Below, piece after piece: positions 1 to 54,485 of a DNA stretch of 64,000 nt. Under the pieces are notes generated by a model that saw nothing but the letters and a program-made list of their open reading frames with translations, was not told the origin of the DNA and did no database searches. Within the stretch, counting starts at the first letter, position 1, and every line of letters starts with the position of its first letter. Position numbers and translations under genes: made by a program. The DNA is from Allolobophora icterica (Eukaryota > Annelida > Clitellata > Crassiclitellata > Lumbricidae), in NCBI GenBank assembly GCA_963556255.1, contig OY744604.1, positions 78,981,197 to 79,045,196 of the forward strand, in the 5' to 3' direction.

Positions 1-350
1 CAGCACAAACCTGACTGAAGTGTTTGATCCTTTGCTGGAAGATGACTATCTGCTGATGTGGTGCGTCATTGAGTTCAGAGGGAATTTTGAGCCAACGATG
101 GAATGGAAAAACGATATTACTGGAGAAATCATGTCTTCTAAACTAACTATAATTCCAAACAGAGACGTAAAATCTGAGCTAATTATGAAACTTAAACGCG
201 ACGATCATGGGGTCAGTTTTTCTTGCACTACGTATTTCAATTTCACAAATGTTGACAACACCGTGAACAAATTTTCCCATCAACGCGACGCTGTGAATAA
301 TGCACCTCTCTACAGGAACATTTGGATATCACCAACAGTGAACGTTTCGC
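1..350 (+). CDS. Gene A exon: C2-like Ig domain (5' cut by window)
   Basis: The reading frame starts at base 2, and base 1 is the last base of a codon that is Cys in the paralogues. The Ig pattern is visible: LMWC, then MEWK, then FSCTT. The same pattern occurs in the exons at 24365-24736 and 40156-40509. The exon ends at GTAAGA in phase 1, matching both paralogues. Sequence beyond 350 in the same frame is intron. Confidence 0.8.
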
Positions 351-1828
351 GTAAGACGATATTATTATCATGCACAGATTTGATGAGTGCATCATGCATC
401 GGACTGAAAATTTTATTGTCGGTAGATCATTGCAACCGCAGCTCTGGATAAGATTGGTATGAGCGAAACTTCTATGCATTTTGCTTCAATCGTTAATATC
501 ACCTATTGGTAAATTGTTTAATGCATCTTAATACCTCTAGAAGTTTGGACAAGTTCTATAAGTCGTTTTATTATGCACAGTAATTAAAGCTTTCCCATTT
601 GGAACATTGATTTCGGTCGATTTGCCAAAAGTCTCCCAATTTAAGGATATGAACTCCTAAATGGCAAACAATTTTAGCTTGAAAGAAACACTATAAACAT
701 TAGCGAGTAAATGCATATGTGTCACAGTTGCAGGAATTACTGCAAAAGCGCTCAAAATATGTTTCGTAATTGAAATCGAGCATTAGTTTAAATTCAATAA
801 ACGATTCCAGTACAAGGCAGCAATGAACTTCATAAGCAACACGTTAATTGTAGGTCAAACTTACTCTAAATGCAAGAATACGCCTGCTGACAGCTTTGCT
901 ACCGAATCAATGCATGGTGAGCATAACTATCAGCGTATGCAAACATATCAAAATTCTCGTCGAAAAATTAGCCACAGAGCGATTGATTCCATTATGTTTA
1001 AGTATTATTTGTTACGCCCACTGCCTTATGCTTAGAGGTTTGTTAAATGTTCCTAGTTTTGATTTGTGTCATTCTTGAAAGACGTTTAATGTGATGGTTT
1101 GACAATTCCATGCAGTTACTCACTTTTATGACCAACTGAAGAAACTTTGAAACGGAGTCTGTTTCTTAGAAGCCTCTCATTGACTTAATGTGTGCAATTT
1201 TGCATATAATAAAAGTAAGAATCTACCTGGTTTAGCTTTGAATTTCTGGCTAAGTATATGCCACTTGGTAAATGTGCGATTAGGAATTTCTTTTTGTTAT
1301 GCTATGCTCTATCTGCGATCTCTAGCGAACTCAGCTATACATAGTACACTGGCCGCACACTGTCAGTGGGAAGATCAGGTTACGGAAAACGATGTCCACT
1401 AGGCCTGGCATGTCGAGATTAAAGAAAATGAGACTTTAATACTTCATACCCATGACGGAAAGAATTCAGAAGAAGAAAGCAGTAAAGATCAGTCAGAGAG
1501 TTAATCTGTCAATAGGCCTACGTCTGTTTTAAAAGAATGTTCGTAGAAGCCCATTCGTATTCGAACCCTAAACCGTGCACAAGCTAGACTTTGTAGTTCA
1601 CTTTCCAGTTCACAGAAAACTTTGTGGTTCATTTCAATTCTTCTGTTGTGAAACTTGCACCGTTAGTGGTCAGGAAAAATTGGCATCATGTCATTGAGGA
1701 AAGTACATACATACAGGTACGTCTGTTTGTGTATGTTCAACTAATTATGATACCCATGAATCACTTGTAGCTTTATCACAACCTTTAATCGTGATCATGC
1801 TGTATTCAGTTGCTTTCTGACATTGTAG
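351..1828 (+). other. Gene A intron
   Basis: No exon is supported here. Short open frames lack family motifs and matching splice phases. Bases 1341-1390 resemble part of the tRNA-derived SINE seen complete at 10511-10805, centred on a block reading GTGGGAAGAT. Confidence 0.5.
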
Positions 1829-1993
1829 TAGCATCGTCTGAAGAACGAGATAAAACTTCTGGTGCTTCTGATTCGACGTCATCGTCATCGTCATCGTCAT
1901 CGTCATCTGTTGCACTCATAGTTATTTTTGTCAATGTATTGGTTCTATCAGCAGTCATCATTGGCTATAAGGTGCTACGGAACTCAGAGCAAG
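1829..1993 (+). CDS. Gene A exon: Ser-rich stalk and transmembrane segment
   Basis: The exon starts after an AG at 1827-1828 in phase 1. It encodes a stalk with about ten consecutive serines, drawn from a TCA/TCG microsatellite, then a hydrophobic span (VALIVIFVNVLVLSAVIIGY) and basic KVLR. The in-phase 3' end is CAAG followed by GC, a GC-AG type donor. The nearby GT after TATAAG would leave phase 0 and break the frame with the next exon. Paralogous membrane exons end in AAAG followed by GTTAG at the same place. Confidence 0.65.
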
Positions 1994-51585: not shown

Positions 51586-52945
51586 CAGTGTTATTTTCGT
51601 TCCTAAAATCATTTTAGTTTTAGTTTCTATTTCTGTCAGGTGTCAATCATTTCTATTTAGTTTTAGTTTTAGTTTTTTAGTTTTCAATCATTTTCGTTTC
51701 TATTTCGTTTCTATTCTTGAAATCATTTTAGTTTTAGTTTAGTTCCAGTTTCTCAAAACCAAATCATTTTAGTTTTCGTTTTTCAAATCATTTTAGTTTT
51801 AGTTTTCGTTTTTCACATAATTTTACTTTAAATGTAAGTTCTGAAAAAGTAGGTTAGCTTACCTTTGATGAAGAAGAAATTACTTCAGACCCTTATTAGC
51901 GGGACTTAGGTCCCTTCAGGTGCCCCAGTTGTGCCCATCCGAGCATTCATAGTGTAAGACGATTTATGTATAACGTGTACTGTAAACGTGTTGATGGACC
52001 AATAAACTGGTGGTTATGGTTATGATAAAGTTGGTTAAAGACTCTAATCGCTTTATATATTCTGTAGAATCAGTCGTGTATGAGGTTCTTTTCTTGAAAT
52101 GTAGGCATCCAGAGTCTGTATTGACGGGCTCTCCCTATCCTCCACTTTACGCTTAGACTGTGTTCTCTTGTTTCTACCTTCCTTTGAATTTGAGTGTGTG
52201 AACCTCGGCATGGTTATGACCTATGTGCGTTTTAAGATTTGTTGGATTTTTACCTGCAATAAAAAATTACAAAATATGTTTCTCATTGTGATTACTATAT
52301 TTTCACGTACTAAAGTAAGGGTGTGTAGCCAAAAGACGGATGCGGAAAAAGTAGCGAGTATGATGCGTAAATTGCGTAGGTATACGTACCAGCTATGCGA
52401 ACACCACACGGCTCTCCTTTGTCATTCAGAACTGTATATCGGCTTTTGTCGTTATCTTCTTCATATATAAAGTAATCCCATACAATACTTTCGCGTATCC
52501 TACCGGATAAAAGCTTTACTAGACTTATTATAAATAACAAATTTCGTAAACATGCACCCACAGTTTGACAGAAATTGTAGACCGCAAACAGGAATAATTT
52601 TAGATATGGACAGTAGACATGTGCCGTTCAACTGCCGCGCCGATAATTTAATAAAAGAGATGGGCCGCCTTGGTTGGATTTTCATTTTCGAATCTTATTT
52701 TTAATAAAATACATGGTTGGATTTTCAATACTTTTCGTTCCAAAAATCATTTTCGTTTTAGTTTTTATTAGTTTTACATCCATTCTTTTTCGTTTTTATT
52801 TAGTTTTCGTTTCCAATATCTTTTTCGTTTTCGTTTTTATTTCGTTTCCATTTCTGAAATCTTTTTCGTTTTAGTTTTCGTTTTCGTTAACGATTGACTT
52901 TTCTTTTTCGTTTTTATTTCGTTTTCGTTAACGATAACATCACTG
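51586..52945. mobile_element. hAT-type element with BED-finger remnant, 1360 bp
   Basis: The left end is CAGTGTTATTTTCG and the right end is CGTTAACGATAACATCACTG, with a perfect 8-bp duplication GTAGCAAT (51578-51585 and 52946-52953). T-rich TTTTAGTTTTCG arrays fill both ends. Confidence 0.87.
52310..52561 (-). pseudogene. BED zinc-finger remnant of a hAT transposase
   Basis: The frame has SIVWDYFIYEEDNDKSRYTV and GEPCGVRIAGTYT, resembling the start of BED fingers (SxVWxYF...C..C...TTNL) found at the N-terminus of hAT transposases. The first Cys of the finger is not visible and the rest of the protein is absent. Confidence 0.6.
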
Positions 52946-54308
52946 GTAGCAATATTGCTGTGTCAAGGTTATTGAACATGAAAAAGATTACATTATATTC
53001 CAGAGGTGTCGCTAGTGCTCAAAAACAACGCCCGACCAAACACGTAGTGGAAAGGTTTCACTATGCATAGGCTTATATAATGATACACATTAATACAAGT
53101 GTGTTGTGTGTGTATTAGTGTGTTTGTGCGAGTTTGTGTTAGGTATTGGGCGGATTAATGGGCACTAGCGACGCCTTGCGAATGTAAACGAGAGGCAATC
53201 ATGTGTGTGTATTTTATGTTAGCGACTTAATTTTCGTTAGCTTAAGCATTATGTAGAGAGATGGCCAATCCTCGCGACCTGGTCTTCCTGCGGACAATAT
53301 ATGGTCACGTTCTCAGTTTCCAGTTGGGTTAACTAGGAAGCGCAATTGAAGTGGATCGGAAATCTCGAAAAATCTTTCTTTCATGGTGAAGAGTTGAGTC
53401 TCTGACTTTTGGGGTGACACCTATCCACGCTAATTTACAATTACGCTAATTAGAAGACGTTAATGACGATCATGACGATTGCTAACTATAATTACGCTTA
53501 TTGCTAGACGATAATGACCCTATTTATAGGATTTTAGAATTTTATACCATAATTTTATATTGAGTGAATTTGATAGCAGCGGTTAGGCTATTGGAAAATA
53601 TCATTTATAAGACATTTTAGTTAGCTAGACTAAACTAAATAAGACCCGAGTTTCTCAGAGAGTAAGACATTAACTTAGTTTTATGCGGTTGGATTTTGCT
53701 GAGCTAGAAAAGTTATTTCTGCTTTATTTTAGATATATTTTTCGAGAACTAGCTTAAAGTGATCTTAAAATAGAAGCCAATGAACCATGTTGGTGTGATG
53801 TTATGTGGTTATACGTTAGGAAGGTATGAGCAAACGCTCGAATGAGTTCAGCAGCGACATATATAACTAAATGGGTTATGTAAACATAATATGGCGACCG
53901 TATGGCCTCGACCCTGCTCGTGTAGCCTATCTGTTACTAATGAGCAGACGAACACTTTATGCCTAACTAATTTCTTTCAATTTTAATAATTATTGTCCGT
54001 TTGGATATCACTGAGCACTAATAGATGTATTTATAATGGTAGAGAAAAAAGTAGGTAGGCTAATTTAGAATGCATGACAGCGTTATAATTATATGGAACT
54101 CAAATACAGTATGACTCATTTTCTTATCTAATATCCATGGAATATATTGAGCAATAAACACTTCTATAGGCCTACTTGATTATGCCAGCTGTTGAATTAA
54201 ATATAGATGTTCGTCGTCACTGACTGTGGATATATTTCTTTGTAACCATCAACTACATCAACCAGGTGAAAAAGCATTAATTTCGTATATTTCTTTCTGC
54301 ATTTGTAG

Positions 54309-54485
54309 AATGTAGGTATAGACGGAACAATCTACGTGGAAATCAACACAGCAAGAGGAAGTCACGTGCCTCCCACAATGCAACAGCAAGCATCAGTTCA
54401 GTCGTTGTTCAACAAATCAGTCTATGCACCGATTGATCACACCGAACAGAACATTCAAACTCTGTCCAACAATACAACTACATGA
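54309..54485 (+). CDS. Gene C last exon: ITSM + ITIM
   Basis: A phase-0 terminal exon, 59 codons including stop. TIYVEI fits TxYxxI and SVYAPI fits SxYxxI. The tail after the ITIM is shorter than in B. The stop is TGA at 54483-54485. Confidence 0.88.
   Translation, partial: NVGIDGTIYVEINTARGSHVPPTMQQQASVQSLFNKSVYAPIDHTEQNIQTLSNNTTT

Follow-up and report, generated by a model that had tools for sequence, protein, structure and literature searches.

A large family of predicted immunoglobulin receptors, very probably from an annelid, with ITSM/ITIM-like tails and signs of exchange between heads and tails

The 64,000-nucleotide stretch analysed here (the window; C3:78981197-79045196 of a 1.12 Gb genome, the one genome that our own-genome searches cover) carries four genes for modular immunoglobulin (Ig) receptors, A, B and C on the plus strand and D on the minus strand. 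The reading that we prefer, and hold to be rather probable, is that A, B and C belong to a lineage-expanded family of annelid type I Ig receptors which signal through SH2 proteins, probably in an inhibitory sense, and whose heads and tails are exchanged among paralogues. It is built on the gene structures, on a family size counted in exons, on the conservation of two tyrosine motifs and on a discordance between the heads and tails of B and C, all of which were observed directly.

The related plus-strand genes were found by repeats and self-comparison and the minus-strand Ig exons by an Ig motif scan, and the models were rebuilt with splice sites. The first-pass annotation had described a four-gene cluster of modular Ig receptors with exon sums in frame and phase-1 module borders, and the rebuilt models agree with it: the spliced frames of all four genes are open, and internal exon borders are in phase 1, apart from a phase-0 end of the penultimate exon in A, B and C. 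Gene B encodes 504 amino acids in 8 exons and gene C 537 in 9, neither with an internal stop (signal-peptide exon not counted), the stop of C ending at 54485. Gene A is open for 411 amino acids over 7 exons from the window edge, conditional on the GC donor of its transmembrane exon; this donor follows position 1993 (CAAG, then GCAAAT), where B and C have GT, and if it is unused a stop comes after a short tail. The IgV exon of gene A lies upstream, just beyond the window edge (L042:7777-8097). Gene D is open from the ATG at 19281 (or 19329) to the stop at 13366, in the order V1, atypical V2, C2 and a transmembrane exon of 64 residues, which ends in the short tyrosine-free tail already annotated. 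A hydrophobicity scan revealed candidate signal-peptide exons in B, C, D and a neighbour gene, E; those of C and E differ at 1 of 13 residues. The exons are as follows.

2..350, plus strand, gene A IgC2 exon, 5' part cut by the window edge
1829..1993, plus strand, gene A transmembrane exon, GC donor
2655..2711, plus strand, gene A juxtamembrane CFHK exon
3323..3481, plus strand, gene A tail exon, IYYEDP
3835..4044, plus strand, gene A tail exon, VYYEDP and VYHEDP, 63-nt tandem repeat
4384..4481, plus strand, gene A tail exon, phase 1 to phase 0
6996..7193, plus strand, gene A last exon, TIYMEV and SVYASI, stop
13366..13562, minus strand, gene D transmembrane exon, short tyrosine-free tail, stop
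15353..15643, minus strand, gene D IgC2 exon
16313..16633, minus strand, gene D second V-like exon, atypical
16939..17265, minus strand, gene D first IgV exon
19230..19281, minus strand, gene D candidate signal-peptide exon (hydrophobicity scan), alternative in-frame ATG 19329
20299..20338, plus strand, gene B candidate signal-peptide exon (hydrophobicity scan)
22393..22707, plus strand, gene B IgV exon
24365..24736, plus strand, gene B IgC2 exon
26789..26923, plus strand, gene B transmembrane exon
27335..27391, plus strand, gene B juxtamembrane CFHK exon
28421..28567, plus strand, gene B tail exon, IYYEDQ
29688..29828, plus strand, gene B tail exon, FYEDP; 81% DNA identity to C begins just upstream, at 29655
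31527..31672, plus strand, gene B tail exon, STYDYVDADL, phase 1 to phase 0
32818..33021, plus strand, gene B last exon, TIYMEV and SIYAPI, stop
37163..37202, plus strand, gene C candidate signal-peptide exon, 12/13 residues as in gene E (L043:2446-2484)
38739..39080, plus strand, gene C IgV exon
40159..40509, plus strand, gene C IgC2 exon
41544..41735, plus strand, gene C transmembrane exon
42984..43043, plus strand, gene C juxtamembrane CFKK exon
43633..43692, plus strand, gene C tail exon, FYEDP
44616..44762, plus strand, gene C tail exon, YYEDP, weak acceptor; 61% amino-acid match in gene E
45445..45585, plus strand, gene C tail exon, FYEDP
47742..47887, plus strand, gene C tail exon, STYDYVDPNF, phase 1 to phase 0
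54309..54485, plus strand, gene C last exon, TIYVEI and SVYAPI, stop

Three further exon candidates were kept out of the models: those near 29946 (B) and 45720 (C), whose frames hit stops, and one at 30430 (B), which lacks a GT donor and is disrupted in C. After the YEDP exon, 29829-30246 in B and 45586-46037 in C form an 85% identical block with exon-like frames ending in stops, possibly an old alternative 3' end.

The long tails with tyrosine motifs that had been annotated in A, B and C held up in the rebuilt models. Each last exon contains DGTxYxE[V/I/L/M], followed about 30 residues on by SxYAx[I/V]DH. The immunoreceptor tyrosine-based switch motif (ITSM) has the pattern TxYxx[VI] and the immunoreceptor tyrosine-based inhibitory motif (ITIM) the pattern [SIVLT]xYxx[IVL]; the pair is ITSM-like, then ITIM-like, although TxYxEL and TxYxEM match the ITSM loosely. 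Both motifs are kept in 13/13 genomic copies matched by the last exon of B at E<=1e-3 (A, B and C included), and alignment of 12 of these copies (L035, in which a stop precedes the motif, was left out) revealed that invariant columns are concentrated around the tyrosines. Compared with shuffled tails, ITIM-type motifs were more numerous in B (3, P 0.004) and C (3, P 0.014). As far as sequence can tell, conservation in all 13 copies is stronger evidence than these counts. A to C have the predicted layout of ITIM/ITSM-bearing type I receptors, with signal peptides that are only candidates in B and C and none found for A.

Searches of the genome placed the cluster within a big family, of a scale that the first-pass annotation had not seen. 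Counted as exon matches, not genes, at E<=1e-3, the IgC2 exon of C gave at least 150 (150 of 470 candidates scored), the IgV exon at least 145 (150 of 531) and the V1 exon of D at least 131 (150 of 382), the last list overlapping that of IgV; among the matches listed, head exons cluster mainly on contigs C3, C9 and C4. A search for further copies of the last-exon motif, proposed in the first-pass annotation, was productive: the last exon of B has 13 matches at E<=1e-3 (58 candidates, all scored), and a C9 copy of it has 56 at E<=1, 30 of these at E<=1e-3 (67 candidates, all scored). All 56 lie on C3, C9, C6 or C4, contigs that also hold head matches. Transmembrane candidates were found within 1.5 kb downstream of 6 of 20 IgC2 loci scanned (one being C itself, one doubtful), and a protein database search returned a single relative, on a contig of 1450 bases (70% identity over 97%). 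To judge from these matches, A to D are a small part of a big lineage-expanded family. The ratio of nonsynonymous to synonymous divergence (dN/dS) within subfamilies was 0.27-1.14 in 25 of 26 IgV pairs (below 1 in 23) and 2.02 in the remaining, near-identical pair, and 0.34-0.80 in all 26 IgC2 pairs; L058 (partial, with a stop) and L068 (distant) were left out of these sets. The Ig heads therefore appear to change fast, yet without free decay.

Comparison of B with C revealed a marked difference in divergence between heads and tails. Synonymous divergence (dS) was 3.2 for the IgV and 1.06 for the IgC2 exon, but 0.24 for the last exon, 0.24 for the STYDY exon and 0.18 for the YEDP exon; six non-coding segments compared in the tail region were 79-91% identical, and the DNA similarity starts at 29655 in B and 45413 in C, inside an intron. 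The first-pass annotation had also proposed an Ig-domain tree; the one built here, for IgV with 19 rows, placed the head of C outside the group that holds B. B falls in a 10-row group (94/97) with copies at 79.21, 79.39, 79.44 and 79.50 Mb, which also holds a long C9 row (L026) and a clade of A and three neighbours (100/100), whereas C, E and the copies at 78.28, 78.30 and 83.72 Mb are not part of that group. An approximately unbiased (AU) test, run after the tree was seen, rejected a clade of the B and C heads (p 6e-51). Since the dS values, the tree and the AU test all indicate that B carries, on a C-type tail, a head from a subfamily other than that of C, exchange or conversion, rather than simple duplication, is suggested; tails would be shared between different heads through such events among paralogues.

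The tails could have an activating or adhesive role. In the activating case, which we regard as a tentative alternative and somewhat unlikely, the YEDP and TxYxE tyrosines would dock kinases or adaptors. YED sites number 2-3 per tail against 0.03-0.04 expected (P 0.0008 or less, 5000 shuffles), and hydrophobic residues at +3 suit other SH2 domains too. However, the spacing of an immunoreceptor tyrosine-based activation motif (ITAM; Yxx[IL]x6-8Yxx[IL]) was found in none of the three tails of A, B and C, and the residues at -2 and +3 are of the ITSM/ITIM type in 13/13 copies of the conserved pair.

The identity of the extracellular exons bears on a second alternative, a cell-adhesion or neural-wiring family of the Ig superfamily, Dpr/DIP- or Dscam-like, whose tyrosine tails would serve adhesion signalling and not immunity. 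The IgV exons exceed Pfam cut-offs (best E 9e-8 for B, 1e-7 for C and 6e-10 for D V1), and the V exons of B, C and D V1 are, by sequence comparison, Ig domains beyond chance. Taken one at a time, the IgC2 exons match weakly (Ig_2 at E<=1 in Pfam for 7 of 19 members), but their profile has 36 PDB matches at E<=1 (best E 0.0034), among them antibody fragments; the others we take to be Ig-superfamily members. The exons can thus be assigned to the Ig superfamily by sequence, IgC2 by profile only. D V2 is weak in Pfam (best E 1.7e-4, under its cut-off) and shows no normal first Cys and no core Trp, yet is kept in paralogues; its fold or binding may be unusual. An adhesion or wiring role would fit the best PDB matches of the C IgV exon, which are Roundabout Ig domains, with antibody light chains ranking lower, and the matches of the IgC2 profile to MDGA1 and NCAM2 among others. 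Conserved wiring genes, however, do not usually form large clustered arrays, differ strongly in their heads from one subfamily to another or exchange heads and tails, and the presence of these features here makes this alternative unlikely.

Similar layouts are known elsewhere. The Hydractinia Alr genes are clustered invertebrate Ig-superfamily genes, some with ITAM/ITIM-like tails; they are cnidarian, and are likened to the present genes by layout. PD-1 and SLAM-type receptors share with A to C an IgV head and ITIM- and ITSM-type tyrosines in the tail, but here the ITSM-like motif comes before the ITIM-like one and YEDP exons are added; no orthology is implied. Botryllus FcoR is a large germline family of type I transmembrane proteins that carry Ig domains of V and C2 type and long tails containing ITIM, hemITAM or core tyrosine motifs; its genes lie in clustered haplotypes and are paired with fester genes (PMC12065747). 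The present family resembles it in being a large germline type I transmembrane Ig family with V and C2 types and long tyrosine-motif tails. The likeness is one of layout; the present family differs in phylum and in having IgV-IgC2 and YEDP exons in place of a sushi domain and two C2 Ig domains (no search aimed at sushi domains was made). Oyster CgIgIT2 has five Ig domains and an ITAM (PMC11999971); both are lophotrochozoan Ig-superfamily membrane receptors with an immunoreceptor tyrosine motif, whereas the present genes have IgV-IgC2, ITSM/ITIM-like motifs, no ITAM and a large array. Invertebrate Ig receptors with immunoreceptor tyrosine motifs are thus already known (FcoR, CgIgIT2), and the present family differs from known systems in phylum, in its IgV-IgC2 and YEDP/ITSM/ITIM layout, in scale and in the sharing of tails between heads.

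An allorecognition system, with a role comparable to that of Botryllus fester/FcoR or Hydractinia Alr, is suggested by a germline multigene Ig family with ITIM-type tails, and Botryllus FcoRs likewise pair V and C2 Ig domains with tails able to hold ITIMs. Since the 1960s, graft rejection with a faster second response has been described in earthworms and leeches, and short-term memory is also documented (PMC2248247). Such a role nevertheless seems doubtful to us, the analysis covering one genome. The open-access literature searched turned up no annelid ITIM-tailed Ig family, which may still be in print, and no Ig receptor named for annelid graft rejection. A clustered, changeable annelid Ig family with ITSM/ITIM-type tails offers concrete candidate genes for graft rejection; it is also relevant to whether self/non-self recognition came under ITIM-style threshold control more than once in animal evolution, and suggests that receptors can swap heads and signalling tails.

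The first-pass annotation had likened the cluster to a paired-receptor locus, an arrangement that in vertebrates marks paired inhibitory and activating or decoy receptors. In the classic form of this reading, A to C would be inhibitory and D an activating or decoy partner for the same ligands. The module types common to A to D, the short tyrosine-free tail of D, the divergent arrangement of D and B, whose candidate start codons are separated by about 1.0 kb, and the interspersion of D paralogues with A-C-like genes would suit such a locus. Analysis of gene D, however, revealed that its V1 shares 28% identity with the V domains of B and C across 86 residues, that it has a third Ig-type exon (V1-V2-C2, against IgV-IgC2 in A to C), and that by eye no charged residue (K, R, D or E) is present in its transmembrane segment or in the two candidate transmembrane segments of paralogues; a vertebrate-style activating twin is therefore not supported. 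The heads of B and C are moreover divergent and their tails similar, the reverse of CD300A and CD300C, whose ectodomains are held similar by gene conversion and whose tails diverge (PMC12447643); the CD300 pair is likewise a set of clustered Ig receptors with an inhibitory-type tail in one class and none in the other, but D is not an ectodomain twin. Among the matches listed, the closest relatives of D V1 are three D-type genes within about 0.35 Mb (70, 55 and 54%), and the atypical V2 is kept in two of them (54 and 48%) and in a more distant paralogue (37.5%; L076, L072, L074). Measured against 13 IgV places from the IgV match list, D and D'1 (70% in V1) are divergent to an A-C-type IgV exon at 5.1 and 9.3 kb, and thus 2 of 4 D-type genes lie within 10 kb; of the other two, one is 37.5 kb off and the second lies on the opposite strand. 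The candidate tail of D'1 is tyrosine-free but could be extended by an in-phase GT donor, and no C2 exon was recognised in this gene; for D'2, a search of 5.9 kb found neither V2 nor a transmembrane exon; a short candidate tail was seen in D'3. The classic pairing is not supported by these comparisons, and we consider it quite improbable. By its sequence, D is a separate, three-Ig class without a predicted signalling tail of its own, possibly a co-receptor, decoy or adhesion partner loosely paired with B. Separately, an isolated minus-strand frame near gene D (10830-11099) has an Ig-like GSYVC end and is possibly a relict Ig exon.

Several points weigh against the preferred reading of an expanded, probably inhibitory receptor family with head/tail exchange. 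The model of gene A requires a GC donor and has no signal-peptide exon in the hydrophobicity scan, and the acceptor of the YYEDP exon of gene C (44616..44762) is without a good pyrimidine tract. The ITIM-type count in A (2, P 0.12), and the ITSM count alone in every tail (P 0.10-0.11), lie within shuffled expectation. Motif conservation is partly ascertained, the copies having been retrieved by similarity to one copy, and the inspection of motifs covered those 13 copies. ITIM/ITSM-type motifs can also recruit activating SH2 proteins. The YEDP exon, with dN 0.230 against dS 0.182 between B and C, may be loosely constrained; in the IgV tree, half of the inner branches (8 of 16) are open and five rows are long, so that its details are unsure; and weak matches in the family counts may be other Ig genes. 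Finally, there are stops inside 19 of the 150 listed IgC2 matches, which, with the GC donor in A and an exon-like block open in B and broken in C, would suit mostly decayed duplicates and not working genes, a view made highly improbable by the open frames of A to D, by the 131 of 150 matches that are stop-free and by IgV dN/dS of 1.14 or less in all pairs but one.

Under the preferred reading, A to C would each be built from an IgV head, an IgC2 domain next to the membrane, a single transmembrane helix and a modular tail of YEDP exons and the last exon. The IgV head would bind a self or non-self ligand, and the tail would be phosphorylated by a Src-type kinase. Vertebrate ITIM/ITSM receptors recruit SHP phosphatases; by analogy, the two last-exon phosphotyrosines might attract a phosphatase with tandem SH2 domains (SHP2/corkscrew type) and so raise the activation threshold of the cell, coelomocytes being the obvious place, and the YEDP tyrosines might dock other SH2 proteins. 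The direction of the signal, the phosphatase, the cell type and the ligands are inferred. Duplication would renew heads, and exchange between paralogues would join heads to tails. On a more speculative view, to which we give little credence, such a repertoire stands behind annelid graft rejection and natural killer (NK)-like coelomocyte killing: possibly more than 100 germline IgV-IgC2 heads would be recurrently recombined with fewer ITSM/ITIM tails, recognition and signal output thus evolving independently as re-assortable modules, with tail-less three-Ig partners of the D type beside them.

The first-pass annotation had remarked that a lineage-specific invertebrate version would be notable, and the source animal is in all likelihood an annelid and may be an earthworm. 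A mitochondrial contig (C328, 15,328 bp) uses the invertebrate code, COX1 having AAA on lysines and ATA on methionines at sites that we take to be conserved. Its gene order, read by eye from translations, is nad3-nad2-cox1-cox2-atp8-cox3 and cox3-nad6-cob-atp6-noncoding-nad5 on one strand, presumably the Lumbricus-type annelid order. An echinoderm origin, guessed from a frequent TAGGCCTA motif seen by eye, was ruled out by this code and annelid-like gene order. The COX1 search also met a 721-aa frame without TGA codons on C257, perhaps a bacterial contig (contaminant or symbiont), and two mitochondrial-type COX1 copies in opposite orientation at C8:61145195-61147845, perhaps a nuclear insertion.

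Elsewhere in the genome, C20:39.6-42.7 Mb holds many further short Ig matches in tandem, apparently of a different family. Within the window, a dispersed repeat some 1.6-1.9 kb long and GCC-rich at its ends is present in two copies (49581-51208 and 59974-61834, pieces 75-89% identical); TNNGLYVETL frames at 50377 and 61197 were ruled out as tail exons, as they lie inside it. The last intron measures 6.4 kb in gene C and 1.1 kb in gene B, a difference due in part to one copy of this repeat in the intron of C. In the last intron of gene A, 5588-6217 contains an inverted repeat with 138-nt arms (96% complementary) and short internal repeats, and resembles a small transposable element. Long microsatellites are found at 39648-39909 (GA, 131 copies) and 40553-40820 (AAG, 89 copies), both within introns of gene C, at 57528-57739 (AT, 106 copies) and at 9222-9670 (a longer imperfect AT tract).

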